Source: Silvibacterium dinghuense | Lineage (GTDB): Bacteria > Acidobacteriota > Terriglobia > Terriglobales > Acidobacteriaceae | NCBI RefSeq assembly: GCF_004123295.1 | Contig: NZ_SDMK01000005.1 | Coordinates: 186,001 to 250,000, forward strand | Reading direction: 5' to 3' | DNA: 64,000 nt | Part shown: piece by piece, positions 2,933 to 61,668 of the stretch | Numbering within the stretch: position 1 is the stretch's first letter | How the letters are laid out: the number at the start of each line of letters is the position of its first letter | The notes under the pieces: model-generated | Database searches by the model: none | Seen by the model: only the letters and a program-made list of their open reading frames with translations | What the model was told of the DNA's origin: nothing | Position numbers and translations under genes: made by a program

Positions 2933-3625
2933 TCAGGTGACGCGCCGCACCCGCGTCACCTGCGTCGCACCCAGGGGAACGAACCCCAGCCGCTCATAAA
3001 GCCGGATCGCGTGGGTGTTGAAGTCCGAGACATGCAGGAAGCTGTGCAAGCCATCCTGCTGGTGCTGGCGCAGGACATGCCGTATCAACGCTGACGCATA
3101 GCCTCGCCCGGTGTACGCCGGATGTGTGCAGACCGCGCTGATCTCGCGCAGCCCGGGCAATGCCAGCCGCTCGCCCGCCATCGCCACCAGTTCACGGCCC
3201 TCGCGCATGCCCCAGTAGCGCCCCATGCGATACGTCTCAGGGCGAAAGAATCCCGGGAACGCCACATCGGTGAGCGCGACCATCTCCGGGCCATGCCCCG
3301 CGTCCAGCCTCTCAATGCGAGGATCGGTTTCTAAGCTGTCTGCCGCTGTGGAAGCCGGAGCCATCTGCAGCGCCGTGATCTCGAACAGCACCGCAAGCTC
3401 ATCCACAACAGGCAAGGGTCCGGCAGCTTTGCTCCAACCAACGAAGAGCTCTTCCTCCACAGCAAGCAGCGCAGCCAGATCGCGCATGGCCTCCTGCGTT
3501 GGCTCGCGCAGCGCGGCAAACGGCACCACTGCGGAGGGATATCTCCGCGCGGCGCGGTCACCCAGGGCAAGCGGCGCATGCACCGTGGTCAAAGCCTGCC
3601 AGACAACATCGCGTATCTCTTCCAT
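2933..3625 (-). CDS. GNAT family N-acetyltransferase
   Basis: 230 residues from the ATG at 3625, five bases after the UnbV stop codon; an in-frame TTG at 3634 would overlap that stop. The C-terminal 120 residues form a GNAT fold, with the acetyl-CoA pyrophosphate loop visible as YTGRGYASALI and the following segment ending in RLYERLGFVPLG. The N-terminal 100 residues have no recognisable motif. It is the last gene of the receptor-TPR-UnbV transcription unit, though this may only be positional. Substrate unknown. Confidence 0.82.
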   Translation of the reverse strand: MEEIRDVVWQALTTVHAPLALGDRAARRYPSAVVPFAALREPTQEAMRDLAALLAVEEELFVGWSKAAGPLPVVDELAVLFEITALQMAPASTAADSLETDPRIERLDAGHGPEMVALTDVAFPGFFRPETYRMGRYWGMREGRELVAMAGERLALPGLREISAVCTHPAYTGRGYASALIRHVLRQHQQDGLHSFLHVSDFNTHAIRLYERLGFVPLGATQVTRVRRVT

Positions 3626-3630
3626 GCCAA

Positions 3631-5436
3631 TCAAGGCCGCAGCGCGGGACGAATCTTCTCCGCCGGAACTACTCCCTGCCCCTCCTGCACCGCATAAAAC
3701 TTATCAGCGGTAAGGTTCGTCAGAGTCTCGATTCTACCGGATGGCCAGCGGATCTCGACGCTGTCGACCTTCGTGGCCGCGCCAAGGCCAAAGTGCAACC
3801 GCATATCGTTCTGCGAGAGATAGCTTCCACCGCTGTGCACCTCATCCGTCTGCGTCATCCCACCTGCTACCACCTTCACCCGCGCATTCAACGCCAGCCG
3901 GTTGCTCTTCGTTCCGGCAAGTTCGAAGCTCACCCAGTGCCGGCCGGGCACACCGTGATTGCGCAGGATCATCGGGCCGCCGTCGAGATCGCTGACCACC
4001 ACGTCCATATTGCCGTCATTGAAGAGATCGCCCACCGCCAGGCCGCGCGAGGCGCGTTTCTCCTCTAGCGCCGGACCCGCCTGCGTGCTGGCATCGCAGA
4101 AGCTGCCATCGCCCTGGTTCATCTGCAGCAGCTTCGGCTCGCGATACCCCGCTCCACTCGGCAACGTATCTACCTGCGGATAGACATGGCCATCGGCAGT
4201 GATGAGATCGAGCCAGCCATCGTTGTCGAGATCGACAAAGGCCGTTCCCCACTTCACAAACGGCAGCGAAGGCAACGCCACGCCCGACGGATAGGAGACT
4301 TCGGTAAAGTTCCACGCACCATCATTGCGATACAGCAGGTCGTTCTCATCGGAAAAGTTCGTCACCGCAAGCGAAGGCCTGTCACTGTGCAGGTAATCGC
4401 CAACCGCAATACCCATCGACGCCTGCTCCGAGCCATCCTCGCTCACCGCCGTTCCCGACTGCAGGCCAATATCTCTGAACTTGCCATCCCCGAGATTCCT
4501 GTAGAGATACTTCGGCGTGGAATCGTTCGCCACGTAGATATCCGGGCGGCCCGTATTGTTAAAGTCCGCCCAGATCACGCTCATTCCGTAATACCCATCC
4601 GGATCGTTCACTCCCGCAGCCTTCGAGACATCGGTAAACGTCCCATCGCCGTTGTTGTGAAAGAGCGAGTCTCCTGCGCCGCGCAGACCACGCGGCCCGC
4701 ACTGCACATCGATGCCGCGGTACTTGCAGTTCGCCGCGCTGCCGAATCCCGGCATGTCGCCAAGATGAAAATCGACATAATTTGTAACCATCAGATCGAC
4801 AAATCCATCACCGTCATAGTCACCGAACGATGCTCCCGTGGACCAGCGTCCGTCGGCCACGCCGGCCTTCGCCGTCACATCGGTGAAGGTCCCATTGCCA
4901 TTGTTGCGATAAAGAATATTGCCGCCGAAACAGGTCTGGTAGATATCCGGCCAGCCATCGTTGTTGTAATCGCCCACTGCGCCACCCATCGCAAAGCATG
5001 GCCTGGTGAGCCCGGCCTTCTCTGTCACATCGGTAAATGTGCCGTCGTGATTGTTCCGGTAGAGCCTGCCCAGGCTCTGCGCGCCGCCCAGCGTCTTCGG
5101 GTCCTGGATGGCCATGGCCACCGTCGGCGCATTGGTGAAGTAGATGTCCAGCCAGCCGTCGCGGTCGTAATCCAGCAGCAGCACACCGCCGCTCATCGAC
5201 TCGACGATGTACTTCTTCATCGGATCGGAGGTATGGCTGAAGGTAATTCCCGTCTTCGCCGTAATATCTTCAAGCTGAGGAATCGTCCGGCCCATGCAGC
5301 GCGTGCTCTTCGCGCCCGGCGGCGGAGGCGTCGGCGCAGGATGCCCCTCCTGCGCAGGAGACGAGAGCGCAAGCAGAGCCACGCTCGCCCACGCTCCGGC
5401 CCTGAACATGCGATACGCCGAAAGAGAATTCTTCAT
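3631..5436 (-). CDS. CRTAC1-like FG-GAP / ASPIC-UnbV secreted protein (triad 1)
   Basis: 601 residues. Signal peptide at 1-28 (VALLALSSPAQ). The body has repeated Asp-rich FG-GAP/VCBS calcium-binding blades (DYDRDGWLDIY, DYNNDGWPDIY, DYDGDGFVDL, DLDNDGWLDL), predicting a beta-propeller. The C-terminal ASPIC/UnbV domain includes GGSYLSQNDMRLHFGLG. Its start overlaps the TPR stop by ATGA (5433-5436), indicating translational coupling. Members are common in Acidobacteria but their biochemical role is not established; an extracellular binding function is inference. Paralogue at 58573-60372. Confidence 0.9.
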   Translation of the reverse strand: MKNSLSAYRMFRAGAWASVALLALSSPAQEGHPAPTPPPPGAKSTRCMGRTIPQLEDITAKTGITFSHTSDPMKKYIVESMSGGVLLLDYDRDGWLDIYFTNAPTVAMAIQDPKTLGGAQSLGRLYRNNHDGTFTDVTEKAGLTRPCFAMGGAVGDYNNDGWPDIYQTCFGGNILYRNNGNGTFTDVTAKAGVADGRWSTGASFGDYDGDGFVDLMVTNYVDFHLGDMPGFGSAANCKYRGIDVQCGPRGLRGAGDSLFHNNGDGTFTDVSKAAGVNDPDGYYGMSVIWADFNNTGRPDIYVANDSTPKYLYRNLGDGKFRDIGLQSGTAVSEDGSEQASMGIAVGDYLHSDRPSLAVTNFSDENDLLYRNDGAWNFTEVSYPSGVALPSLPFVKWGTAFVDLDNDGWLDLITADGHVYPQVDTLPSGAGYREPKLLQMNQGDGSFCDASTQAGPALEEKRASRGLAVGDLFNDGNMDVVVSDLDGGPMILRNHGVPGRHWVSFELAGTKSNRLALNARVKVVAGGMTQTDEVHSGGSYLSQNDMRLHFGLGAATKVDSVEIRWPSGRIETLTNLTADKFYAVQEGQGVVPAEKIRPALRP

Positions 5437-6746
5437 GGTTTCTGCTTCTGCTGCAGGCCCTGCGCGATGCGTTGCCGCTCCTTTGCCTTGATCTCGCGAT
5501 AGATCGCCAGCTCGCGGTCGGCATCCGCAATGCGCCCGTTCCGGCGATACGCCGACTGCAACTGATAATGCACGTAGTCCATCCCCGGCATCAGCTTCGC
5601 CGCGGCCTCCAGGTGCGGCAGCGCCTCCTTCATCTCTCCCTCGCTCATCAGCAGCTTGCCCAGCTCATACTGGGCATTGCCGTAATCGGGACGCACGGCA
5701 AGGACCGCCTCGAACCTCTGCTGGGCATCTTCGTTTGTCGATTCCTGCACATCGACGTATCCCAGCTCATACGTCGTATCCGTATCTCCCGGAGTCAACA
5801 TCAGCTCGGCCTCGAACTCTTTCCGGGCCTCTGCCAGATGCTGCCAGTGGATATCCGCGAGCCCGGCATAATAGTGAGCGCGCTGCAGGGAAGGATTCAC
5901 AGCCAGCGCCGCATGCAGTTCGTCCACAGCCTTTTCGTAGTTGCCAATCTCGATCCATAGCTGAGCGACCGACAACTTCATCGCATCGGGTAATGCAAGC
6001 TGCTGATAGTGCTCGAGCACCTCGCTGGCATGATCCGGGTCGCCGACACGCGCCAGCGAAACCGCCCAGGCATAGCCGACTTCGCCGTCCTCCATGCCCG
6101 CCATACCCAGCGGATAGAACGCAGTCGCGGCGTCTCCGTATTTCTCCATTGCAAAATACGACATGCCGAGCATGGCGCGCAGTGCAGGCTTCTCCGGATC
6201 GGCCTTCACCGCAAGCGCAAGGGCGCGCACCGCCTCGGGATAGTTCTTTACGCGGAAAGCGCTTTGCCCCAGGTTGCGATCAAGGTCGGGTACGTCCGCA
6301 TCCCACTTCTCCGCATCCTGATAATGGCCAAGCGCTGCCGCATAATTCTGCTGTATCGCTTCCGCGGTAGCCAGATCGCTGAAGCTCTGGCCGAGAATAC
6401 GGCGTAGTTCTTCTGCCTGCCTCTTCCCGGCATCGATCTCTCCGGATGCCGCTGTCCCCTGCTTTAACTTCGCCATCATGCGCAGAGCCACCTGCACCAG
6501 TTGCTGATTGGCATACGCAATGGAAACCGGATTCCCCGAGAGACGCGCGGCCTCCGCAGCCTGAAGACGGCGATGAAGCTCGTCCTCTGCGTGCTCGCGC
6601 GAAGCAGTGGTGGACTGCTGTGCCGTCGCAGCAGGAGTCGCGGCAACGGCAAAGCTCGCAGGCACCAGCAGGAACAAGAGAAAAACCCGCAGTCCGGCGG
6701 CAGAAGAAAAAGAGGAAAACATCGAAGAAAAGGACGAGAAAAGCAT
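5433..6746 (-). CDS. Secreted tetratricopeptide-repeat protein (triad 1)
   Basis: 437 residues. The N-terminus has a hydrophobic export signal ending near ASFAVAA, then a Gln/Ala linker. From about residue 60 onward, TPR helices follow one another (for example NYPEAVRALALAVKADPEKPALRAML is one repeat), so the protein should be a scaffold. It lies between the TonB-dependent receptor and the UnbV gene and overlaps the latter by 4 nt. A possible internal start is Met9. The same gene order recurs at 60350-61573. Function: probably helps receptor-associated assembly on the periplasmic side (inference). Confidence 0.85.
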   Translation of the reverse strand: MLFSSFSSMFSSFSSAAGLRVFLLFLLVPASFAVAATPAATAQQSTTASREHAEDELHRRLQAAEAARLSGNPVSIAYANQQLVQVALRMMAKLKQGTAASGEIDAGKRQAEELRRILGQSFSDLATAEAIQQNYAAALGHYQDAEKWDADVPDLDRNLGQSAFRVKNYPEAVRALALAVKADPEKPALRAMLGMSYFAMEKYGDAATAFYPLGMAGMEDGEVGYAWAVSLARVGDPDHASEVLEHYQQLALPDAMKLSVAQLWIEIGNYEKAVDELHAALAVNPSLQRAHYYAGLADIHWQHLAEARKEFEAELMLTPGDTDTTYELGYVDVQESTNEDAQQRFEAVLAVRPDYGNAQYELGKLLMSEGEMKEALPHLEAAAKLMPGMDYVHYQLQSAYRRNGRIADADRELAIYREIKAKERQRIAQGLQQKQKP

Positions 6747-6784
6747 CGCAGGAAAAGGCGGCAGCGGAACCTGCAGGAAGAGTA

Positions 6785-6818
6785 AAGCGGCGGGCCCTGC
6801 GCAGCAAGCCCGCCGCTT
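6785..6818 (-). terminator. GC-rich hairpin between receptor and TPR genes
   Basis: An 11-bp inverted repeat (AAGCGGCGGGC at 6785-6795 and its complement at 6808-6818) with a 12-nt loop sits between the receptor stop and the TPR start. There is no long U-tract, so it may attenuate rather than end transcription, giving more receptor than downstream mRNA. Confidence 0.55.
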
Positions 6819-6846
6819 CCATGAAAACAGCTGTTTCCAGTGCTTC

Positions 6847-9800
6847 TTAGAACGTGAGCCTCAGCGAGTACTGAAGATTCCGTCCCTGGTTGAGGTTTTC
6901 CGTGCCGGCGGCAGCATATCCGGTCGGAGTCGAAGCGCTGCTGATGACGTTATTGGTGGTGCTGCAGGGTTGTCCGGTAGGACCAGTGTATCCCGAGGGA
7001 TTCGCCGACGAACCGGGGCTCGCAGCCGTGGCTCCGCCGCAATAGACGCCGCTCGAAGAGGTGAAGGCCGCGGCTTCCAGGTTGCTGCTGTTGAAGTTGG
7101 GATGATTGAAGAGATCGAAGAAGTCCATGCTGAACTTGATCCGCAGTTTCTCTTTGATCGTCCAGTTCTTGGCCAGCTGCGCATCCACGTTGGTATTCGG
7201 AGCGCCATAGCAGCCGCCGCGTGGCGCAAGGTTCGACGGGAAGCTGCCGATCTGGTAGCCGACCAGCGTAAAGTGGCTCCAGTTCAGCAGGTTCGGACCA
7301 TTCTTGCCTTCATCGCACGCGGTGGAAGTGACAAGCGGCCGCTGGTTGGAGGTATAGCCCGTGCCCACCAGTGCGGAGAGTGCGCTGCTGTAACCCGGCA
7401 CGCAGGTACCGGCCAGGCTCTGGTCCGAGTAGTTCCACGGATAGTAGTTGGTGCAGGCTCCAGTCACTCCGTTCGTAAAGACCGAGAACGAGCTGCCCTG
7501 CGCCATGGTAAAGATGCTGTTCAGCTCCCATCCGCCCAGCGTCTGCTGCATCAGGTGGTTGTATTGGGTCAGCTTGGGCAGAAAGAGCACCTCATTCGCC
7601 ACGAAGATATTCGGACGATTGATGTTGGTGTTCCCCTTGTCCAGGCCCGGGTTGTATTGGTCGGTGATGGCCTGCTGGTTCACGCTGCCCGAGGAGTTAT
7701 CCAGCTCGACGTTGCCGATCGAGTGTCCCCAGGTATAGGCCGCCTGGAAGGTCGACGGCCCCACCTGCGAACGGAACAGCGCCTGCAGCGAGTGGTAGCT
7801 CGCATGGCCTCCGCGCGCAAAGCCGCCGATCTCCCCGAAGTTGAAGGCCGGGCGGTACACATCCTGAGCTGAACCGCTGGCAAAGGCAGCATCCAGCCAG
7901 TTGTTGTCCGTCACCGCATTGGCATCGCGCATCGAGGTCAGGTGCATACCCGTATTACCCACGTATCCCAGCTGGAACGTGGTGTTGCGGGCAAGGCTCT
8001 GCTCAATGCTTAGGTTCCATTGCCAGGAATTCGGGATAAAGCCGCCCGTATCCTTGTTCGCGCTCGGTGATACCGCGGCCGAAGTAATCGGCGTCACCGT
8101 ATCCATGGAGCGATTGGTATTCACATTCAGGACGAACGGCGCGTTGCGGGCAAGGTTCTCGGCAATGCCCACAATTTCACGCTGGTAGAACTGGCCGGCA
8201 CCGGCGCGGACCGCCGTCTTGCCGTCGCCGAAGACATCCCAGGCGATACCGACACGCGGCGCCACGCTGTGCATGTTCTGCTGCACCAGGGCGGAGTTCG
8301 GTCCCTTGGTACCGCTCGAAAGCGGCAGCGAGACACCGAGCCCGGCCATGAACTTCGCCTGGTTCGCGCACGGAGTCGTACCCGGAACAATCAGGATGCC
8401 ATTGCAGGCATCGGACGGATTGGCCGTAGCCTCCGAAGCGCTCCAGTTCGCCAGGCTCCAGTTCGCCCACTGATTGGCGTAGTTGCCGCCGCTGTCATAG
8501 GCCGCATTCGTGTTGCCGCTGCCGCTGCCGCCAAAAGGCTCGCGATAAATCGACCACCGGAAGCCATAGTTCAATGTGATCCGGCGATTGAGCTTCCATG
8601 AATCGCCGAGATACGGCTCGATGTCCCGCCAGTGCACGTCGGCAATGCCATCGATGCTGTTTTCGCTGATATTGCTGAAGACCTGCGCGTTGGTGCCGGT
8701 GCCGGGCAGCAGAATCGTCGCCAGCTCGTTGTTGGTGTCATAGCAATAGACCGAATCGGTGATGGTGCAGGTCGTCGGCAGCCCGGGCCGGTCGGCGCCC
8801 GCGCCATTGCTCTCCACCTTTTCGCTGAAGCCCAGCAGAATACCGGTCTTGATCACGTGGTTTCCCCACACCTTGGACAGGTTGTCCTGCACGGTGTAGA
8901 TATCCTCATGGTTGCCATACGGAGCGATGTTCTCAATCGAGGTCTGCCCTTCGCTGTAGCCGGAGCTTCCGCCCACATAGCCGTAAGGACTGAGACTTCC
9001 CCCGCCAAAGAACTCATCCTTCTGCTTGATCGACGTGGGGAAGGTAGTCGGATACGCGCTCTGCAACTCAGGAACGATATTGGACTTCGTGCCCTCAAGC
9101 GTGGTGATGATGCGGTTCTGGCCGAAGCCGAATTCCACGTCGTTCACCAGCGTGTCGGAGATGGTGGAAGTCAGCTTGGCCATGATGCTGCGCGACGGCT
9201 GCTCCCAGGTAGAGTCGACGGTGGGGAAATCCGACTCGCCCCAGAACGGAGAGCCATCATTCGGAGCCGGGTTCACCCAGCTGTCATCGGTCCAGCGCAG
9301 CGTGACCACATTCCTCTTGGTGACGTTGTAATCTCCGCGCACATTCCACTCGCGCCAGTTCAAATGGTTATTGATGAGATTGCTGTAGTTGTTGCCCGCG
9401 CCGTTCACCGTGCTCGATCCGGTGGGATAGAACTGCGCGATCAGCAGGCCCGCCGCATCCGGGCTCGCAATCTTCAGCGAGTTTCCCGCAGTCTGCGCAT
9501 AAGTGGGAATCGTCGGAATCTTGGCGCCGCATTGATCCACAGCCACGCCGCTGGACGTACCGGTTTGCGCCGCAGAGAAATCCCCGCCTTCTTCGGCAGC
9601 CGTCGGCACGCAGGCTGAGAGTGGAACGCCCTGGATCTCTTTATTCCATTCCTGGTTCCACCAGAAAAAGAGCTTGTCACGAATGATCGGACCGCTGATG
9701 TTATAGCCATAATCGTCGCGGCGTTCCTTGGACTTGCCAAGACCGTCATGATTGGCATACCAGTTGTTCGCATCGAGCGCGTCGTTGCGGCCCGAATAGA

Positions 9801-10611
9801 ATGCGCCGGCATGGAACTGGTTCTGGCCGGAGCGGGTCGTGATACTGATGATCGCACCTGCCGCCTGGCCATACTCCGGCCCATAGGAGTTGCGGATCAT
9901 CTTGAATTCAGCAATGGTATCCACCGAGGGATAGATCAGGATGGTGCGGCCCGAACCGACGTCGTTGTTGTTCACGCCATCGACCAGGAAGAGGTTGTAG
10001 TTATAGGGATTGCCGTTGACGGAGAAGTTCACGCCGCCATCCAGGCCCTTGCCCACGAAGTTGGCGCCCTGCGCCGCACTGACACCGGGAGAAAGTTGCG
10101 TGAGTCCGACAAAGTTCTCGCCATTCAACGGAAGCTCGCGCACCTGCGTGCCGCCGACCACCTCACCCACAGTCGCCGAAGTGGTTTCCACCTGCACCGC
10201 ATCGGCCGCGACCGTAACGGTTTCGCTCTGCGAGCCGACCTGCATCAGGGCATTGACCGAGGTGTTCGTCGAGGTATGAACGATCACCCCGGTTTCGACA
10301 TATTCCTTGAAGTTACCTTGCTTGACATGCACCTCATAGGTGCCGATCGGTAACTGCGGAAAGGTAAATTCGCCCTGCGCGCCCGACTTTTGCTCGGACT
10401 TATCTCCCGTGCCTGTATTGACCACCGTGATTGTAGCTCCGGGGATAGCCGCTCCTGTAGCATCCGTGACCGTGCCCACGATGGAGCCGGAGTACTGCTG
10501 GGCATGCAGGCCGAGAGGTAAGGCCAGCAATACCGCCAGCAGAGCAAGGACAAAGGTGCAGAAACGGCCTCGTTTCGTGCACACACTGCCCCCTGGGAAG
10601 GTGCTGTGCAT
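6847..10611 (-). CDS. TonB-dependent receptor with carboxypeptidase-like domain (Oar-like, triad 1)
   Basis: 1254 residues from the ATG at 10611, supported by AAGGAGG seven bases upstream; the open frame extends further but without a site. Order: signal peptide (to about residue 38, ending LGLHAQQ), carboxypeptidase regulatory-like beta-sandwich (GSIVGTVTDATGAAIPGA), plug region (residues about 130-250), then a large outer-membrane beta-barrel ending in Phe (SLRLTF), the usual BAM recognition signal. Typical of Acidobacterial receptors that import large ligands using TonB energy. It heads the minus-strand unit with TPR and UnbV genes; three LacI-type boxes lie upstream. Ligand unknown. Confidence 0.93.
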   Translation of the reverse strand: MHSTFPGGSVCTKRGRFCTFVLALLAVLLALPLGLHAQQYSGSIVGTVTDATGAAIPGATITVVNTGTGDKSEQKSGAQGEFTFPQLPIGTYEVHVKQGNFKEYVETGVIVHTSTNTSVNALMQVGSQSETVTVAADAVQVETTSATVGEVVGGTQVRELPLNGENFVGLTQLSPGVSAAQGANFVGKGLDGGVNFSVNGNPYNYNLFLVDGVNNNDVGSGRTILIYPSVDTIAEFKMIRNSYGPEYGQAAGAIISITTRSGQNQFHAGAFYSGRNDALDANNWYANHDGLGKSKERRDDYGYNISGPIIRDKLFFWWNQEWNKEIQGVPLSACVPTAAEEGGDFSAAQTGTSSGVAVDQCGAKIPTIPTYAQTAGNSLKIASPDAAGLLIAQFYPTGSSTVNGAGNNYSNLINNHLNWREWNVRGDYNVTKRNVVTLRWTDDSWVNPAPNDGSPFWGESDFPTVDSTWEQPSRSIMAKLTSTISDTLVNDVEFGFGQNRIITTLEGTKSNIVPELQSAYPTTFPTSIKQKDEFFGGGSLSPYGYVGGSSGYSEGQTSIENIAPYGNHEDIYTVQDNLSKVWGNHVIKTGILLGFSEKVESNGAGADRPGLPTTCTITDSVYCYDTNNELATILLPGTGTNAQVFSNISENSIDGIADVHWRDIEPYLGDSWKLNRRITLNYGFRWSIYREPFGGSGSGNTNAAYDSGGNYANQWANWSLANWSASEATANPSDACNGILIVPGTTPCANQAKFMAGLGVSLPLSSGTKGPNSALVQQNMHSVAPRVGIAWDVFGDGKTAVRAGAGQFYQREIVGIAENLARNAPFVLNVNTNRSMDTVTPITSAAVSPSANKDTGGFIPNSWQWNLSIEQSLARNTTFQLGYVGNTGMHLTSMRDANAVTDNNWLDAAFASGSAQDVYRPAFNFGEIGGFARGGHASYHSLQALFRSQVGPSTFQAAYTWGHSIGNVELDNSSGSVNQQAITDQYNPGLDKGNTNINRPNIFVANEVLFLPKLTQYNHLMQQTLGGWELNSIFTMAQGSSFSVFTNGVTGACTNYYPWNYSDQSLAGTCVPGYSSALSALVGTGYTSNQRPLVTSTACDEGKNGPNLLNWSHFTLVGYQIGSFPSNLAPRGGCYGAPNTNVDAQLAKNWTIKEKLRIKFSMDFFDLFNHPNFNSSNLEAAAFTSSSGVYCGGATAASPGSSANPSGYTGPTGQPCSTTNNVISSASTPTGYAAAGTENLNQGRNLQYSLRLTF

Positions 10612-10755: not shown

Positions 10756-11013
10756 TTACTCTTCACAGATTGCGACTGTCAACAGAAATCCTGCACCTAT
10801 CCCACTTATTCATCCCTAGTAAGCACGGGGCATCCATCATGCGTCTGGAGATGCGCACGTTATCGCTAACTCGCTCTCATCCACTGCCGACTTGAGAAAG
10901 TGGAAGACGCGGAAAGAAGCTGCGCGCAGGGATTGCGCGGACGCAGAGTAGCGCTGGGAATTCACAGCGCCAGGCTTGCTGCAATCACCAGGCAGGTGAT
11001 CAGCAGATCGGAA

Positions 11014-11025
11014 TGAAACGTTTAC
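11014..11025 (-). promoter_or_regulatory. Third LacI-type box
   Basis: TGAAACGTTTAC, the same AAACGTTT core, lies 31 bp downstream of the NIF3-like stop codon and 270 bp from the pair at 10712-10755. It could be an auxiliary site allowing DNA looping. Confidence 0.45.
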
Positions 11026-11055
11026 TAAATAGCCCTAACTTCGGATAACCCGAAG

Positions 11056-12301: not shown

Positions 12302-12502
12302 TCCCTCCACTCTGGCTGCAGTCTAGGACGGCACAACAGGGACGATCCTCGCCGGCGGCGAGAACGACCCTTGCTCTGCGCAGAAATGGGCTCGCTCCCA
12401 GCGCAATCCCGAAAGAGGAATCAACCCGGCTGACAGACATCCCTCCGGCAGGCTATGCTGATGCCGCGAGTAAACGATTTCTCAACACAGGAAGCCTTCC
12501 CG

Positions 12503-13615
12503 ATGAAACCCCTCCGCCTCGCCCTCAAAACTCTCGCCGCCACCGCGCTCGCGCTCCTGCCCGCCCTCGGCGCCGCGCAGGCTCCCCAGGCATTTCCGCT
12601 CTCCGGCGATTACTGGGGCACCCACGACCCCTCCATCATGAAAGCCCCCAATAGCCAGGGCAAAGACACCTGGTACGTCTTCGCCACCGGCAAGGCCTTC
12701 GGCGGAGGCCAGTTCCAGATTCGCTGCTCAAACGATCTCCACGCCTGGAAACTCTGCGGCCATGTCTTCGATCAGATCCCCGAATGGATTCGTAAGGACA
12801 GTCCCGGCACCGAGGAACTCTGGGCTCCGGATATCTCCTTCCACCATGGCGAGTACCAGCTCTATTACGCCTATTCGCTCTTCGGAAAGAACCTCTCCGG
12901 CATCGCGCTGGCAACCAACAAGACGCTCGACCCCGCCAGCCCCGACTACAAGTGGGAAGACCACGGCCTGGTGCTGCGCTCGGTCAAGGGTGATGACTTC
13001 AACGCCATCGACCCCAATTTCATCGTCGATGCGCATGGCAACTCGTGGCTCGCCTTCGGCAGCTTCTGGAACGGCATCAAGATGCGCCGTATCGACAACA
13101 AAACCGGCCTGCTCTCGAAGACCGACACCCGCCTCTACGCGCTGGCCACGCGCGCCAAACCCGCAGATGCAGTCGCAGCCGAGAAGCGCGTGCATGTCAA
13201 CGGCGTCACCGACGATCTCCCTCCGGACTGGGAGGCCATCGAAGCGCCCTTCGTCGTCCATCACGGCGGCTACTACTACCTCTTCGTCTCGTGGGATCTC
13301 TGCTGCCGTGGCACGAAGAGCACCTATCACACCATGGTGGGGCGCTCGCGCTCGGTCACTGGCCCGTATGTCGACAAGACCGGCAAGCCGATGATGGAAG
13401 GCGGCGGCTCGGAGCTGCTCAACGCCAACGCACGCTGGCTCGGCCCCGGCGGCGCATCGCTGCTGATGTCCGGCGGCGACGGCATTATCGTCTTCCACGC
13501 CTACGACGCGAAAACCGGCAAGCCCGCGCTCCAGGTCTCGACGCTGACCTGGCAGGACGACTGGCCGCATGCCGCTCTGGGTGACTCCGAGGCAGCTCCG
13601 CCCGCGCATGAATAA
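12503..13615 (+). CDS. Secreted glycoside hydrolase family 43, endo-arabinanase-like
   Basis: 370 residues from the ATG at 12503 (CAGGAAG eight bases upstream; an earlier in-frame ATG at 12455 would bury the signal peptide). Signal to about residue 26 (PALGAAQA). GH43 five-blade propeller: catalytic base Asp in GTHDPSIM, pKa-modulating Asp in NAIDPNFI, proton donor Glu in EAIEAPFVV. The segment SWDLCCRGTKSTYHTMVGRS closely resembles endo-1,5-alpha-L-arabinanases. Expected to cut arabinan side chains of pectin in the periplasm or outside. Nearby receptor triad 1 may import the products (inference). Confidence 0.9.
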   Translation: MKPLRLALKTLAATALALLPALGAAQAPQAFPLSGDYWGTHDPSIMKAPNSQGKDTWYVFATGKAFGGGQFQIRCSNDLHAWKLCGHVFDQIPEWIRKDSPGTEELWAPDISFHHGEYQLYYAYSLFGKNLSGIALATNKTLDPASPDYKWEDHGLVLRSVKGDDFNAIDPNFIVDAHGNSWLAFGSFWNGIKMRRIDNKTGLLSKTDTRLYALATRAKPADAVAAEKRVHVNGVTDDLPPDWEAIEAPFVVHHGGYYYLFVSWDLCCRGTKSTYHTMVGRSRSVTGPYVDKTGKPMMEGGGSELLNANARWLGPGGASLLMSGGDGIIVFHAYDAKTGKPALQVSTLTWQDDWPHAALGDSEAAPPAHE

Positions 13616-54634: not shown

Positions 54635-54697
54635 CAATTCCCTCCGGCACTCGTGGCGGGTGGGGTAATCTGGACTCCACCGAACACCTCACCTGCC

Positions 54698-56038
54698 ATG
54701 AGCTACCGGCACACCATCCGCGGCGTCTCCTACGTGTTTGCCGATCTTCGCGAGCTGCTCGCGAAGGCCACCCCGGCGCGCAGCGGCGATGAGCTGGCAG
54801 GCATCGCTGCAACCTCCGCCGCCGAGCGCGTAGCCGCGCAGATGACTCTCGCCGATCTGCCTCTCGCCGAATTTCTCTCGAAACCTCTTATCGAAGAAGA
54901 CGAGGTCACGCGCCTCATCCACACGCAACAGGATGCCGCGGCCTTTGCGCCGCTGGCGGGCTTTACCGTGGGCGAGCTGCGCGACTGGCTGCTGGGCGAT
55001 GAGGCCACCGGGGAGCGCCTCGCGTCGCTGCACTGGGCCTTTACGCCGGAGATGGCAGCCGCCGTCTCAAAGCTCATGCGCCTGCAGGACCTGGTCCTCG
55101 TCGCGCGCAAGATCGAGGTCGTCACCCGCTTCCGCACCACCATCGGGCTCAAAGGCACGCTCGCCTCGCGCCTGCAGCCGAATCACCCTACCGACGATCC
55201 CACCGGCATCGCCGCATCGATCCTCGACGGGCTGCTGCTCGGCGTGGGCGATGCGGTCATCGGCATCAATCCGGTCTCGGATAACATCGCCACCACCACT
55301 ACGCTGCTCACACTCATCGACCGCGTGCGCGAGCGGTATCGCATCCCGGTGCAAAGCTGCGTGCTGGCGCACATCACCACGCAGATGCAGGCGCTCGCAC
55401 GCGGAGCGCCGGTCGATCTGCTCTTTCAGTCGATCGCGGGCACGGAGAAAGCGAATGCCTCCTTCGGCGTCTCGCTCTCTCTATTAGATGAAGCGTATGC
55501 AGCGGGACTCTCGCTCAAGCGCGGCACGCTCGGCAACAACCTGATGTACTTCGAGACCGGCCAGGGCAGTGCGCTTTCTGCGAATGCACATCATGGCATC
55601 GATCAGCAGACATGCGAGGCACGCGCCTATGCCGTCGCACGGCAATACAAGCCGCTGCTGGTGAACACCGTCGTCGGCTTCATCGGGCCTGAATACCTTT
55701 ACGATGGCAGGCAGATCCTGCGTGCCGCGCTCGAAGATCATTTCTGCGGCAAGCTGCTCGGTCTCCCGATGGGTTGTGATGTCTGCTACACCACGCACGC
55801 CGAGGCCAACGACGACGACACCGACGCCATCATGACCATGCTCGGCGTCGCGGGCGTGAACTACATCATGGGCGTGCCCGGAGCCGATGACGTGATGCTC
55901 AACTACCAGAGCACTTCGTTCCATGACATCGCCTATCTGCGCACCGCGCTCGGATTAAGACCCGCGCCGGAATTCGAAGCCTGGCTTAACACCGGCCTGC
56001 GCGACGATCTATCGCTCGCAGGACTGCTGACCGCATGA
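54698..56038 (+). CDS. eutB: Ethanolamine ammonia-lyase large subunit
   Basis: 446 residues from the ATG at 54698 (MSYRHTIRGVSYVF is the family start; the longer frame begins at 54653). Adenosylcobalamin-dependent enzyme converting ethanolamine to acetaldehyde and ammonia. TIM-barrel with RFRTTIGLKGTLASRLQPNH, GDAVIGINPVSDN and CDVCYTTHAEANDDD. ATGA overlap with eutC. No microcompartment, EutA reactivase, or transporter genes lie in the window. Confidence 0.95.
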   Translation: MSYRHTIRGVSYVFADLRELLAKATPARSGDELAGIAATSAAERVAAQMTLADLPLAEFLSKPLIEEDEVTRLIHTQQDAAAFAPLAGFTVGELRDWLLGDEATGERLASLHWAFTPEMAAAVSKLMRLQDLVLVARKIEVVTRFRTTIGLKGTLASRLQPNHPTDDPTGIAASILDGLLLGVGDAVIGINPVSDNIATTTTLLTLIDRVRERYRIPVQSCVLAHITTQMQALARGAPVDLLFQSIAGTEKANASFGVSLSLLDEAYAAGLSLKRGTLGNNLMYFETGQGSALSANAHHGIDQQTCEARAYAVARQYKPLLVNTVVGFIGPEYLYDGRQILRAALEDHFCGKLLGLPMGCDVCYTTHAEANDDDTDAIMTMLGVAGVNYIMGVPGADDVMLNYQSTSFHDIAYLRTALGLRPAPEFEAWLNTGLRDDLSLAGLLTA

Positions 56039-56910
56039 GCGAAACGCCAGGCCGCCGCGACCCCGCTGCCCCACTCCTCGAGCCTGCGCGTTCGCGGCCA
56101 GCGGGAGCGCGTGCCGAAGGCGATCCGCACTGCGCGCAGCAGATGGGTGCCCCACGTCTCGATGCTGAGACGTGGGAGACAATGCGATCCGCACTGCGCA
56201 CGCATACGCCCGCGCGTGTCGCCCTGCGCAGCGCCGGGCGCTCGCTCGCGACCAGCGAAATTCTCGACCTGAACTGGTCGCTTGCGCAGGCGCGCGATGC
56301 GCTACACACGCCGCTGAGCCTCGCCACGCTTGTGCCATCCTGCATCGCTGCCAAATGGACACCGTTGCGTACGCACAGCGCCGCACGCGATCGCGGAGAG
56401 TACCTGCGACGCCCCGATCTCGGACGCCGGCTCAGCGCAGACTCACGGGATGCACTCACGGCTCTCGATGCAAAACCGCAACCGCTGGCCATCATTCTCG
56501 CTGACGGCCTCTCACCGCTGGCCATCGAACGGCATGCCGTGCCGCTGCTGCTAGCACTGCGTGCGCTTGTACCGGAGATCGCTGCAGCACCGCTGGTCAT
56601 CGCCGAGCAAGCGCGAGTAGCCATCGGCGACGAGATCGGCGAGCTGCTCCACGCACAACTTGCCCTACTCATGATTGGCGAACGCCCCGGTCTGAGCTCG
56701 CCCGACTCGCTCGGCGCTTACTTAACATGGTCACCAAAAACAGGAAGGACGGATGCCGAGCGCAACTGCATCTCGAACATCCGTCCTGAAGGTCTGCGCT
56801 ATCCCGAGGCCGCGGAGAAAATCGCCTTCTACCTGCGCGCAGCACGCCAGCTCGGCCGCACCGGCGTCGATCTTAAAGAGGACTCGCTGCTGCCATCGGG
56901 AGAGAGATAG
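56035..56910 (+). CDS. eutC: Ethanolamine ammonia-lyase small subunit with repeat-derived N-terminal insertion
   Basis: 291 residues, ATG at 56035 overlapping the eutB stop. The lyase core begins at THTPARVALRSAGRSLAT and includes IILADGLSPLAIERHA and YLTWSPKTGRTDAERNCISNIR, with GVDLKE near the end. Relatives go from a short leader straight into the ARxALGRAG motif. Here about 35-40 extra residues (roughly 15-52) are encoded by repeat B (56090-56140) and repeat C (56145-56178), flanked by two copies of GCGATCCGCACTGCGC. Frame is intact, so the enzyme is probably still made. Confidence 0.92.
   Translation: MSETPGRRDPAAPLLEPARSRPAGARAEGDPHCAQQMGAPRLDAETWETMRSALRTHTPARVALRSAGRSLATSEILDLNWSLAQARDALHTPLSLATLVPSCIAAKWTPLRTHSAARDRGEYLRRPDLGRRLSADSRDALTALDAKPQPLAIILADGLSPLAIERHAVPLLLALRALVPEIAAAPLVIAEQARVAIGDEIGELLHAQLALLMIGERPGLSSPDSLGAYLTWSPKTGRTDAERNCISNIRPEGLRYPEAAEKIAFYLRAARQLGRTGVDLKEDSLLPSGER
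56090..56199 (+). repeat. Repeat B and C copies inside eutC
   Basis: Repeat B (inverted) at 56090-56140 and repeat C at 56145-56178 (GGGTGCCCCACGTCTCG, stem CCCACGTCTC/GAGACGTGGG). The 16-bp direct repeat GCGATCCGCACTGCGC is at 56120-56135 and 56184-56199. Confidence 0.8.
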
Positions 56911-57018: not shown

Positions 57019-58422
57019 TCACCAGACATACGTGGCCACAGCAGCGGCCGGCAGAGAAGTCGTGATCGCTTTGCCGTGATCGCGAATCTCGAATTTCTGC
57101 TCTTCCTTCGAGGTATTCGCAACAATCACCACCAGTTTGCCGCCCGGTACCTTGAAGGCCACATTCTCCAGCCCCTCCGGCTCATTCGAGCCGATGCGCA
57201 CCGAGCCATCCGGCACAAACTTCGAGGCCTGCGCCACGGTGTAATAAGCCACATTGCGCGTGATCGAATCACCGTCAATCGTGATCGCGCCTTCGCACAT
57301 CGGGCAACCGCCATCGTTGGTGTGCGGGCCGAAAGATGGATCGGCAGCCAGGTTCCACAGCAGCACATTGCGTGCCCAGTTACGCGGAGCAGCGACGATC
57401 AGCCGCGAGACAGCGCGGGCCACTGCGAGTTGCGTCTCACCTTTCTCGTCAATGGTCATCTGCTCGGTGAAGTAAAGATTTTTCTTCGGAAATGCATCGT
57501 GTACCTGCGTCATCGCGCCGATCTCGCCCTCATAAAGATGAAAAGCCGAGCCGTCGACATACTTTGCCGCAGCAGGGTCTTTGAGGATGGTCAGCGGATA
57601 ATCCGGACGGTTGCAGTTGTGGTCGTAGACGATGATCTTCGTCTTCAGCTTTGCCTTGCCGAAGGCCGGTCCCAACGCCGTCTCGATGAACTTCGCCTGA
57701 TCCTCAGCCTGCATCACCATGCTCGGCGTGTTATGCGGATTCAGCGGCTCATTCTGCACCGTGATCGCATCGATGCCAATGCCCTGCGCGCGCATCGCAT
57801 CGATGTACTTCACGAAATAAGCTGCATACGCACCGTAATACTCCGGCTTCAGGCTTCCGTCTTTCAGCTTGTCATTGGTCTTCATCCACGCCGGAGCCGA
57901 CCATGGCGAGCCGAGAATCTTGATCTTCGGATTGATGGCCAGAATCTCTTTGAGAACGGGCACCACCGTCGTCGCATCAGGACCGAGATCGAACTTCTCG
58001 AGCTTCGGATCGGTCTCACCCGCAGCAAGATCGTCATAGGTGAAGGCATGGTCGTTCATATCGGACGAGCCAATGCTCACGCGGATGTAATTCACGCCGA
58101 TTTCGTTATCGCCGCGCCCGAAGAGCTCCTGCAGCAACTCATGACGCTGCGGCGCGCTCATCTTCATCATCAGCTGAGCGCTGCCGCCGGTGAGAGCGAA
58201 GCCAAAGCCGTCCATCGACTGGAATTTCTGCTTGGTGTCGATCGTGATCACCGGCAGCTTGCCGCCTTCCGCCTTATGAAAGCCGAGGTCCGGCTGCTTC
58301 GCCAGCAGCGCGCTCCGGTCCGCCGTGGTCAGCCATTCGGAGGCATCACTCGATCCGGCAAGAGCCAGCGAAGGCAGGGTCAACAGCATCAGGGCAGGCA
58401 GTACAGCAGATCGAAATCGCAC
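57019..58422 (-). CDS. Secreted glycoside hydrolase family 30
   Basis: 467 residues from the GTG at 58422 (AGGA upstream); the ATG at 58500 adds 26 residues ahead of the signal peptide (PALMLLTLPSLALAG). TIM barrel with a beta-sandwich flank: FQSMDGFGFALTGG start, acid/base Glu in AITVQNEPLN, nucleophile Glu in LYFTEQM. GH30 enzymes act on beta-glucosyl, beta-1,6-glucan or xylan linkages; specificity unknown. It follows the second triad on the same strand. Confidence 0.9.
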   Translation of the reverse strand: MRFRSAVLPALMLLTLPSLALAGSSDASEWLTTADRSALLAKQPDLGFHKAEGGKLPVITIDTKQKFQSMDGFGFALTGGSAQLMMKMSAPQRHELLQELFGRGDNEIGVNYIRVSIGSSDMNDHAFTYDDLAAGETDPKLEKFDLGPDATTVVPVLKEILAINPKIKILGSPWSAPAWMKTNDKLKDGSLKPEYYGAYAAYFVKYIDAMRAQGIGIDAITVQNEPLNPHNTPSMVMQAEDQAKFIETALGPAFGKAKLKTKIIVYDHNCNRPDYPLTILKDPAAAKYVDGSAFHLYEGEIGAMTQVHDAFPKKNLYFTEQMTIDEKGETQLAVARAVSRLIVAAPRNWARNVLLWNLAADPSFGPHTNDGGCPMCEGAITIDGDSITRNVAYYTVAQASKFVPDGSVRIGSNEPEGLENVAFKVPGGKLVVIVANTSKEEQKFEIRDHGKAITTSLPAAAVATYVW

Positions 58423-58559
58423 AGGAGTTCCTCTCAAGTTCGGTCGTGATTCGGTTGCGGATCGGTCGAAGCCCGGCAATACAAAGGCTGCGACCCGCAA
58501 TCATTAGGCCGCCGCGCGCAGCCGGCTGTCAAGCGGAGAAGGAACAATATCCATGAAAA

Positions 58560-58569
58560 CAATCGATTG
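58560..58569 (-). promoter_or_regulatory. LacI-like palindrome upstream of GH30 gene
   Basis: CAATCGATTG, a perfect palindrome with a central CG, preceded by GAAAA, 138 bp upstream of the GTG and 4 bp past the end of the second UnbV gene. Candidate operator for a regulator absent from the window. Confidence 0.3.
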
Positions 58570-58572
58570 CCT

Positions 58573-60372
58573 TCAATGCAGCGCGAGTTTCGCGGGCGAA
58601 GGCTCCGCAGGCTGCGATGCAATCACGCCGGCACCTTCGCGGATCGAGTAGAAGTGTTCACCATCAAGATTGGTGAGCGTTTCTCTTGCACCGTCCGGCC
58701 ATTGCACTTCCACCTTCTCAGCCCGCGCGTGAGAGCCCAGGCCGAAGTGGAGCTGGAGATCGTTTTGCGAAAGATAACTGCCTCCGCTCAATACCTCTCC
58801 GGTCTGCACCAGGTCGCCGCTGGTGACGCGTACACGCGCATTCAGCGCCAGGCGATTGCTCCTCGTCCCCTCGAGCGTGAAGGCGATCCAGTGGTTCTGC
58901 GCACCGCCCTCTGGCCGAAGGATCATCGGGCTGCCGGTGAGGTTTTCGACAATCAACTCCTGCCGCCCATCATGGAAGAGATCCGCAACGGCGAGTCCAC
59001 GACTTACCTGCGGCGTTTCGATGGCAGGACCAGCGTCATGGCTCACATTACGGAATGTGCCGTCGTGCTGATTCCAGAAGAGCAGCTTCGGCTCGCGATA
59101 ACGTGCCGCGGTGTGTGCGTCGTCCACCTGCGGATAGACGTGACCATTCACCACAAAAAAATCGAGCCAGCCGCTGTTATCGAGATCGACGAGCGCATCG
59201 CCCCAACCCACGTAGCCCTTCGTCGCTGCTTCGATCCCGCTTGCCGCGGAAACATCGCTGAAATTCATCTTTCCATCATTCCGATAGACCGCCGCGTATT
59301 CGTTGTCGAAATGAGAAAGGATGAGCGCAGCGCGCCCGGTGTGCAGATAGTCGCCATAAGCGATGCCCATGTTCGCCTGCGCGACTCCGTCCTCGCTGGC
59401 GGCCACGCCTGCACTGTAGGCGATATCGGTAAACGCACCGTTGCCTCCATTGCGGTAGAGATAGTTCTGCTGGCCATCGTTGGTGACGAAGAGATCGAGA
59501 TGGCCATCGTCGTCGAAATCCGACCAGATCGCAGTGAGTCCGTAAAGCTGCTGCGCATCCTCAACGCCGGCCTGCACCGAAACATCGCGAAAGGTACCAT
59601 CGCCGTTATTGCGATAGAGGTTGTCGGGCGATCCCTTCAGTCCGCGAGGTCCGCACTGCACCTCGACGCCGAGATACTTGCACGTCTGGCTCGAGCCAAA
59701 GACCGGCAGCGCCTTCAGGTCGAGATCGACATAGTGCGAGACAAAGAGATCGGCATAACCATCGCCGTCGTAATCGCCAAAAGCCGCTCCCGTCGCCCAC
59801 AGCTTATCTCCGGCAAGACCGGCTGCTTTCGTTACATCGGTAAAGGTGCCGTCCTTGTTATTGCGATAAAGCACTACGCCGCCAAAGCAGGTCACGAGCA
59901 GATCCGGCCAGCCGTCATTGTTGTAATCGCCGACCACTGCGCCCATGGCCCAGCAGGGTGTGGCAACACCCGCTTTGTCGGTGACATCCGTAAATGTGCC
60001 GTCGTGGTTGTTGTGATAGAGCGCGCTTCGCGCAGGTTTGCCGGCAAGAGCCATCTCCACGCTCTGTGCACCGGTGAAGTAAAGATCGGGCCAGCCGTCA
60101 TGGTCGTAATCGATGACCGCCACGCCGCCACTCATCGACTCGACGATATAGCGCTGCCCGGGGCTGGAAAGATGCTCCCAGTGAATACCCGTCCGCGAGG
60201 TAATATCCACAAGCTGGACGGGAGACGAGCTTTCACGCCTCGCCCCTTCGCGCGCCGGGCTCTCGCGCACAGACTCCTGCGCCCGCACACGGCATGCGCC
60301 GCAACACACCGCCATCAGAGCCAGCGCCACGACCTGAAGCTGACGGCCCTTACTGTTTCTGCACTGGCTCAT
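58573..60372 (-). CDS. CRTAC1-like FG-GAP / ASPIC-UnbV secreted protein (triad 2)
   Basis: 599 residues from the ATG at 60372, inside the last 23 bases of the TPR gene; an in-frame ATG at 60387 adds five. Signal peptide to about residue 31 (ACRVRAQ). FG-GAP repeats (DYDHDGWPDLY, DYNNDGWPDLL, DYDGDGYADLF, DFDDDGHLDLF) and ASPIC/UnbV C-terminus (GGSYLSQNDLQLHFGLG). It closely parallels the 3631-5436 protein. Confidence 0.9.
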   Translation of the reverse strand: MSQCRNSKGRQLQVVALALMAVCCGACRVRAQESVRESPAREGARRESSSPVQLVDITSRTGIHWEHLSSPGQRYIVESMSGGVAVIDYDHDGWPDLYFTGAQSVEMALAGKPARSALYHNNHDGTFTDVTDKAGVATPCWAMGAVVGDYNNDGWPDLLVTCFGGVVLYRNNKDGTFTDVTKAAGLAGDKLWATGAAFGDYDGDGYADLFVSHYVDLDLKALPVFGSSQTCKYLGVEVQCGPRGLKGSPDNLYRNNGDGTFRDVSVQAGVEDAQQLYGLTAIWSDFDDDGHLDLFVTNDGQQNYLYRNGGNGAFTDIAYSAGVAASEDGVAQANMGIAYGDYLHTGRAALILSHFDNEYAAVYRNDGKMNFSDVSAASGIEAATKGYVGWGDALVDLDNSGWLDFFVVNGHVYPQVDDAHTAARYREPKLLFWNQHDGTFRNVSHDAGPAIETPQVSRGLAVADLFHDGRQELIVENLTGSPMILRPEGGAQNHWIAFTLEGTRSNRLALNARVRVTSGDLVQTGEVLSGGSYLSQNDLQLHFGLGSHARAEKVEVQWPDGARETLTNLDGEHFYSIREGAGVIASQPAEPSPAKLALH

Positions 60373-61573
60373 CGTCTTTCGGGTCATCGCGAATCTGGTC
60401 CGGCTGAATCTGCAGCTCCTTGTACATCGCCCGCAGCTTGTCCTTCATCTGCCGATATTTTTGAAACTGCTCGAGCTCGGCCCGTGCCTGCTCCGTCCTG
60501 CCCTGTTCACGAAAGAGCGTGCTCAGGCGATAGTGCGCGGTCGCATTGGTCGGATCAAGCTGCACCACGCGCTCCAGCAATGGAAGCGCCTTGTCCTTCT
60601 GATCTAGTGCGATGTAGGCCTTCGCCAGACCGAAGCTCGCATCCGCGCTATCCGGCCGCAGCGCTACTGCCTTCTCGTAGTCCGTTTTCGCCTGCGGCCA
60701 GTCATTCTTCGTTGCGGCGATATCGCCCAGCCGCTCGAGTGATTTCGCATCGCCGGGATTCTGCTGCAGCGCGTTCTGATATTCGGCGATGGCCTCCTGC
60801 TTCAGCTTCGGATCAGAGGAAGTATTCAGCAACTCGGCCAACTCGAAATGAACGCCGGGCAGGTGCGGATTCAACGCAATGGCCTTGCGATATTCGGCAA
60901 TGGCCTCATTCGTCTTGCCCTCGCGAGTCTCCTCGTGAGCCATCACCTGATGCATCTGCGGCGAGTCGGGATCGACCAGCGAGAGGCTTACGATCGACTC
61001 CGCAGCCAGATCGGAGTGAATCCGGTAGGCGGCATAAATCACCTCGACATTTTCCGGATCGCTCTTGCGCAACTCGGCCACGATCGCGGCGGCCTTATCC
61101 AGCTCTCCGCTCGCGGAATATAACTCCACCATGGCAAGACCAAGCTGCGTTTTGAATTTAGTCTCGGTGATCTGCGGAAAGGCCGCTTCCATGTCCGTGC
61201 GTGCCGAGGCCATGTCTCCGGTATTGTGCTCCGCAATGCCGAGCAGCCCCTGGATTTTCACGAGACTCCGCTGCAACATTACAGCCTGCTTCAGGTGAGG
61301 CACCGCACCGGCGTAGTCTCCTCGGAAGAAAAGCAGTACGCCGAGATTCGCCTGCACGTCGACATTCTGCGGATCGAGCTTCGCCCATGCTTCGAGCTCA
61401 GGGATGGCCAGCTCCGGCTTCTTCTCGCGCAGATACTCCTGCGCCTTGCGAGCATGCGTGGCGATCTCGGATTGACGAGCAGAAGCCGGATCTGTGGATG
61501 TCTGGGCAAAGAGCGGCGCAGCGATAAGAAGTGCGCCGTAAAAAAGGAGAGACAGGCGCTGCGGAAATTTCAT
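60350..61573 (-). CDS. Secreted tetratricopeptide-repeat protein (triad 2)
   Basis: 407 residues from the ATG at 61573, chosen because it places the signal peptide (LSLLFYGALLIAAPLFAQ) at the N-terminus; the open frame starts at 61657. TPR helices run to about residue 360 (PELAIPELEAWAKLDPQNV, NPHLPGVHFELAELL). C-terminus is charged. Overlaps the UnbV gene by 23 nt and follows the TonB receptor by 95 bp. Paralogue of the protein at 5433-6746. Confidence 0.87.
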   Translation of the reverse strand: MKFPQRLSLLFYGALLIAAPLFAQTSTDPASARQSEIATHARKAQEYLREKKPELAIPELEAWAKLDPQNVDVQANLGVLLFFRGDYAGAVPHLKQAVMLQRSLVKIQGLLGIAEHNTGDMASARTDMEAAFPQITETKFKTQLGLAMVELYSASGELDKAAAIVAELRKSDPENVEVIYAAYRIHSDLAAESIVSLSLVDPDSPQMHQVMAHEETREGKTNEAIAEYRKAIALNPHLPGVHFELAELLNTSSDPKLKQEAIAEYQNALQQNPGDAKSLERLGDIAATKNDWPQAKTDYEKAVALRPDSADASFGLAKAYIALDQKDKALPLLERVVQLDPTNATAHYRLSTLFREQGRTEQARAELEQFQKYRQMKDKLRAMYKELQIQPDQIRDDPKDDEPVQKQ

Positions 61574-61668
61574 GACAGACGATGATAGCCTTTGCGCTTT
61601 CGATACGCAGTACACAAAAGCGGGGAGACGGCGAACCGTCTCCCCCTGGAGGTACATCGATACAGCGG

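Follow-up and report, generated by a model that had tools for sequence, protein, structure and literature searches.

The window analyzed here, a 64,000-nucleotide stretch of Silvibacterium dinghuense (positions 186,001 to 250,000 of contig NZ_SDMK01000005.1), contains two gene clusters that each encode a TonB-dependent receptor, a TPR protein and an UnbV protein, and the second of these, copy 2, is apparently a conserved, co-regulated, SusD-less glycan-uptake operon. Because the triads recur together and one of them shares a switch sequence with hydrolases, they look like a glycan-feeding system of this soil bacterium that works without SusD, the usual partner of importers of this kind. Specifically, the palindrome AGACAANCGNTTGTCT, which is new here, is common to the receptor operon and to GH30, GH3 and beta-helix genes in copy-2 loci.

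Organization of the two triads

Both clusters lie on the minus strand in the order receptor, TPR, UnbV, as a sequence-only reading of the window had proposed and as the open reading frames and Pfam matches bear out. In copy 1, the receptor gene occupies positions 6847-10611 (minus strand) from the ATG used here, the open frame extending to 10704, and encodes a TonB-dependent receptor with a CarboxypepD_reg domain, a weak plug match (Pfam E 0.001) and an OMP_b-brl_4 barrel. It is followed by the genes for the TPR protein (5433-6746, minus strand; 437 aa, Pfam TPRs, type I-like signal) and the UnbV/CRTAC1 protein (3631-5436, minus strand; FG-GAP propeller, UnbV domain, type I-like signal), whose coordinates confirm the 4-nt overlap reported earlier. 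This TPR protein is a short form, in which about 370 internal residues, an entire TPR block, are missing compared with the 803-aa G130 ortholog; most other close copy 1 TPR orthologs are also about 800 aa long. At its other end, the UnbV gene overlaps by 4 nt, as if co-translated, a gene for a GNAT acetyltransferase (2933-3634, minus strand), which may belong to the copy 1 operon as its fourth gene.

In copy 2, the window holds the 3' part of the receptor gene (61669-64000, minus strand), which runs about 1.1 kb past the window end; locus L010 holds the full receptor, 1156 aa from the likely ATG. The TPR gene (60350-61657, minus strand; 435 aa, type I-like signal) and the UnbV/CRTAC1 gene (58573-60387, minus strand; FG-GAP and UnbV domains) overlap by the 23 nt stated before when UnbV is read from its second ATG, and by 38 nt from its first. 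The hydrolase genes that had been noted near the clusters, GH43 at one and GH30 at the other, are both real. The former (12455-13615, plus strand; probable start 12503) encodes an endo-alpha-1,5-arabinanase-like enzyme that scores 271 bits against the AbnA model, under the model cut-off of 480, and the latter (57019-58500, minus strand) encodes an endo-beta-1,6-glucanase-like relative of BT3312 and is separated from the copy 2 UnbV gene by 72 bp. The ethanolamine ammonia-lyase genes eutB and eutC (54653-56910) adjoin the copy 2 region and are unrelated to the triad.

The triads are distinct families with conserved linkage

The two UnbV proteins are of nearly equal length (601 and 604 aa), as had been noticed, share 54% identity and the same Pfam domains, FG-GAP_3 and UnbV_ASPIC, and fall in sister clades of the UnbV tree. 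The earlier description of the triads as duplicated, however, is misleading beyond UnbV, because the receptors and the TPR proteins are only 24% and 21% identical between the copies, the level of unrelated members, and a joint clade of both receptors is marginally rejected (AU p 0.048). These values also count against a recent block duplication of the entire triad; a very old one may have taken place. By sequence, the two triads are distinct families, each with its own co-inherited set. A copy-1-type triad in L140, a named Acidobacteriales MAG, shows 58%, 47% and 73% identity for receptor, TPR and UnbV, respectively, and over 18 triads the distances of the three proteins correlate with one another (Mantel r 0.88-0.95), common ancestry contributing to the correlation.

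Linkage of TPR and UnbV genes with receptors in other genomes, without which the sequence-only reading would have fallen, is strongly conserved. Among 179 UnbV genes at 100 loci sampled from 60 genomes of the order, 112 have a TPR gene within 6 kb, compared with 6 of the 138 genes in 20 control stretches (Fisher p 6e-30), and 64 have a receptor within 6 kb, compared with 20 of the 138 (Fisher p 2e-5); these p-values serve as a guide only because related genomes and tandem genes are non-independent. Exact same-strand receptor-TPR-UnbV triads number 14 in this sample, and 18 when four more from named MAG contigs are included. When 150 genomes of the order were queried with the copy 2 proteins, 28 of the 41 TPR orthologs (at least 40% identity) lay directly between receptor and UnbV orthologs, in 28 genomes, and 10 further ones adjoined one partner. 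For copy 1, whose receptor is represented by orthologs in another 18 genomes of the order, both a TPR and an UnbV gene occur within 12 kb of the receptor in 16 of 19 cases, arranged as receptor-TPR-UnbV (11), UnbV-receptor-TPR (4) or TPR-UnbV-receptor (1). The persistence of the copy 1 clusters through such changes argues more strongly for function than an invariant order would. A search of plasmid sequences for UnbV context returned no Bacteroidota matches.

A LacI-type palindrome is shared by receptor and hydrolase genes

In copy-2-type loci, AGACAANCGNTTGTCT forms a near-perfect LacI-type palindrome between the LacI and receptor genes. Allowing at most one mismatch, 23 sites occur in the 12 copy-2-type loci, with a few more at two mismatches, and they precede receptors as well as GH3, GH30 and beta-helix hydrolase genes. 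The palindrome is found in 11 of the 12 loci, L139 being the one that lacks it, and the background is low: shuffled palindromes give 0-1 sites, and other loci yield 1 in 3.5 Mb. Three one-mismatch matches occur in the S. dinghuense genome itself. Two stand immediately upstream of the copy 2 receptor; the third (C1:2049410-2049425) has no GH3 or PF12708 gene nearby. Additionally, an operator-like site with two mismatches to AGACAAWCGNTTGTCT lies at 58557-58572, within the gap between UnbV and GH30. The LacI protein would be expected to bind this palindrome.

In the copy-1-type locus of L140, the LacI and receptor genes flank another palindrome, AGTAAACGCTTACT. When this pattern, one of three related ones tried, was run against the window with 2 mismatches in 14 allowed, exactly two places matched, a count that 0 of 100 shuffles reached. 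Both are operator-like sites with two mismatches to the L140 palindrome: one at 11013-11026, upstream of the copy 1 receptor, and one at 12469-12482, just before the probable GH43 start. A common operator linking the copy 1 receptor and GH43 is suggestive only, and the GH43 link was not seen in sampled relatives.

Copy 2 lies in a glycan-degradation context

Copy-2-type loci in relatives carry LacI regulators, GH30, GH3, GH5 and GH2 enzymes and a 990-aa beta-helix protein, the best solved relatives of which are GH55 beta-1,3-glucanases. Among 67 copy-2 neighbour proteins, the LacI sugar-binding domain occurs 11 times, GH30 7, GH3 5, GH5 5 and the beta-helix family 6 times, whereas none of these five families is among the best 25 families listed for 71 control proteins, in which one GH77 is present; the copy-2 sample spans a narrow taxonomic range, and the hydrolase queries were drawn from the same loci. 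The best PDB match of the window GH30 is BT3312 (5ngk, 7e-81), an endo-beta-1,6-glucanase from a fungal-glucan locus of Bacteroides (PMC5481569). Their alignment retains the NEP, FTE, VLLWN and CPMC motifs, comprising the catalytic Glu pair, a Trp and the Cys-x-x-Cys loop, and the NCBIfam BT3312 model matches over its full length at 388 bits, under its cut-off of 700. In the broad sense of a PUL, in which a linked importer, hydrolases and regulator are apparently co-regulated, copy 2 would qualify, and copy 1 would do so weakly.

Folds and export signals of the triad proteins

Both receptors possess the N-terminal carboxypeptidase-like domain, plug and large beta barrel of CarboxypepD_reg/OMP_b-brl_4 TonB-dependent receptors, with OMP_b-brl_4 E-values of 1e-126 and 4e-151. 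The AlphaFold model of the copy 2 receptor (pLDDT 77) is a plugged TonB-dependent barrel. Its fold search shows no preference for SusC, which first appears at rank 35, and iron and protein receptors are the closest solved folds; in line with this, no NCBIfam SusC model matches the receptor, placing it outside the SusC/RagA family.

The FG-GAP propeller repeats and UnbV_ASPIC domain assign the UnbV proteins to the CRTAC1/ASPIC-UnbV family, and six DxDxDG-type propeller motifs are visible in copy 2. The copy 2 model (pLDDT 90) has murine CRTAC1 (9etn) as its nearest solved structure (E 5e-32). The two share an FG-GAP propeller followed by a C-terminal UnbV domain; however, they are only 21% identical, and the UnbV protein is bacterial, exported and encoded in an operon with a receptor and a TPR protein. 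Fungal GlcNAc-binding propeller lectins come next in the search, a predicted resemblance at fold level only (TM about 0.33 on the query).

A simple scan finds a type I-like signal in nearly all 54 proteins of the 18 triads, and a simple regex finds a lipobox in none of them, so surface display of TPR and UnbV needs another route. SusD (PF14322) is absent from the S. dinghuense genome and 20 relatives, while the control search returns matches in Bacteroides. TPR homology to SusD was considered and rejected, since the 60 best PDB matches of the TPR profile include only generic TPR proteins. The earlier suggestion that TPR and UnbV stand in place of SusD thus holds for gene position and for the absence of SusD, but not for biochemistry, given the type I-like signals and missing lipobox.

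A putative glycan-import unit and its alternatives

We think it probable that each triad forms the outer-membrane portion of a glycan-utilization operon under LacI control, with TPR and UnbV as dedicated partners of the receptor. The receptor would act as a TonB-driven importer, and the exported TPR and UnbV proteins, the latter with its calcium-type-motif propeller and C-terminal beta domain, would hold or present oligosaccharides to it, taking the position in the locus where Bacteroidota encode SusD and surface glycan-binding lipoproteins. The copy 2 substrate would most likely be a fungal-type beta-1,6/beta-1,3-glucan cut by GH30, GH3 and GH55-like enzymes, and that of copy 1 may be an arabinose polymer, as GH43 hints. 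For the triads, we infer glycan binding, a physical complex, the membrane side and the substrates from this computational evidence. As a tentative extension that we consider possible, Acidobacteriota may have evolved their own TonB glycan-import partners: a TPR scaffold together with a CRTAC1-type calcium propeller would take over the roles of SusD and surface binders, and the UnbV lineage would be retained as receptors are exchanged according to substrate.

Alternatively, UnbV could be secreted and act, as a lectin or an enzyme, on external polysaccharide without ever touching the receptor, the TPR protein aiding its folding or export, which would give co-regulation without a complex. Such a role agrees with type I-like signals lacking a lipid anchor and with the nearness of the UnbV fold to fungal lectins, and TPR proteins often serve as export or assembly helpers; yet the dedicated co-inherited sets and the clusters that survive order changes suggest a closer coupling, and natural TPR-UnbV fusions exist, which makes this alternative unlikely in our judgement. 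Transport in the opposite direction, with the receptor exporting UnbV and the TPR protein as a periplasmic escort, is improbable. An Oar-type receptor in Myxococcus has been proposed to export protein cargo, and the Oar-type CarboxypepD_reg architecture of the receptors and the UnbV protein without a lipobox are compatible with the same task, but an operator common with glycan hydrolases and the PUL-like context fit import better, and more than 60 such receptor matches stand against only 10 UnbV genes in the genome.

A redox or metal function of TPR-UnbV pairs, with the PUL context as a secondary recruitment, draws on 25 TPR proteins beside UnbV genes that carry 4-7 haem motifs, on the 16 of 100 sampled loci with such multihaem-cytochrome TPR proteins (at least 4 haem motifs), and on a locus of the same genome that combines a multicopper oxidase, a receptor and a cation-efflux gene. 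However, the window TPR proteins have no haem motif, the copy 2 family sits among glycan-degradation genes and the haem-TPR loci fall in other UnbV clades, leaving this reading very improbable. Chance neighbourhood of three abundant families is hardly credible: a genome may hold many TPR genes and 66 or more receptor matches, but the linkage statistics, the ortholog synteny in 28 genomes and the shared operator rule it out.

The preferred reading, a glycan-utilization operon with dedicated receptor partners, can be set beside known systems. Like the Bacteroides PUL1,6-beta-glucan (BT3309-BT3314; PMC5481569), copy 2 loci combine a GH30 endo-1,6-beta-glucanase and GH3 with an importer of the outer membrane and a pair of exported proteins that are not catalytic. 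They differ in lacking SusD and an SGBP lipoprotein, with TPR and UnbV bearing type I-like signals instead, in having LacI regulators and a non-SusC receptor, and in the GH5 and GH55-like enzymes that relatives also carry. The likeness to SusC/SusD of Bacteroidota in general lies in a TonB-dependent barrel, a dedicated partner encoded alongside and hydrolases, although the triads have neither a SusD homolog nor a SusC-model match and their partner proteins are non-lipidated by sequence. Another parallel is the acidobacterial receptor-CRTAC1-GH30-GH28 locus of Granulicella tundricola pACIX902, in which a receptor 57.5% identical to that of copy 2 is followed by CRTAC1 and GH30; unlike in copy 2, the TPR gene and the receptor are about 1.5 kb apart, with the TPR gene upstream and a cytochrome gene in between, and the CRTAC1 protein comes from another UnbV clade.

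Acidobacteriota, degraders of plant and fungal polymers, rank among the most abundant bacteria in soil. If the proposal is true, a receptor-TPR-UnbV unit marked by the operator would account for part of glycan import in the tested SusD-less genomes, and the bacterial CRTAC1 family would gain its first function; our literature search found no paper that assigns a function to bacterial UnbV proteins. The conserved unit would offer a sequence handle by which similar loci can be found, and would open the function of the large uncharacterised bacterial CRTAC1/UnbV family to direct tests.

UnbV genes in other contexts

The nutrient-uptake role proposed in the sequence-only reading gains from the GH30, GH3, GH5, GH55-like and LacI genes and the common operator-like site of copy 2, but does not extend to all UnbV genes. 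We argue it for the two window lineages and not for the whole family, because other UnbV clades sit with multihaem cytochromes and many lack a receptor or hydrolase; 34 of the 100 sampled loci have no receptor, tested hydrolase or haem-TPR gene. The 5.1-Mb S. dinghuense genome contains 10 UnbV genes, and its matches to this receptor family number at least 66. Outside the window, its loci include UnbV, TPR and receptor genes on mixed strands (L013), a receptor, UnbV and a cytochrome c554-domain TPR protein with a multicopper oxidase and a cation-efflux gene (L014), a natural TPR-UnbV fusion (L015), and tandem UnbV loci with no receptor in the examined stretch (L011 and L012).

A second UnbV clade adjoins the same GH30 family in L069, L063, L066 and L094. 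In L063, the pACIX902 locus, the second-clade UnbV follows a copy-2-type receptor, and the operator precedes a TPR gene, the receptor gene and GH30. The haem-TPR loci look like a second, redox-like context of UnbV: in about 25 TPR proteins beside UnbV genes, a cytochrome c554-like domain with 4-7 CxxCH motifs is fused to TPRs, examples being L014:7805-10261 (C1 of the same genome), L060, L081, L088, L108, L113, L144, L187 and others. Finally, L011 (C4:185000-204999) contains a block of a long TPR-UnbV-type protein, an UnbV gene, an intervening gene (a 283-aa protein in L011) and another UnbV gene, with no receptor nearby. This block is conserved in L018, L023, L027, L029, L034, L038, L048 and L080, and one of its UnbV clades has a very long branch.
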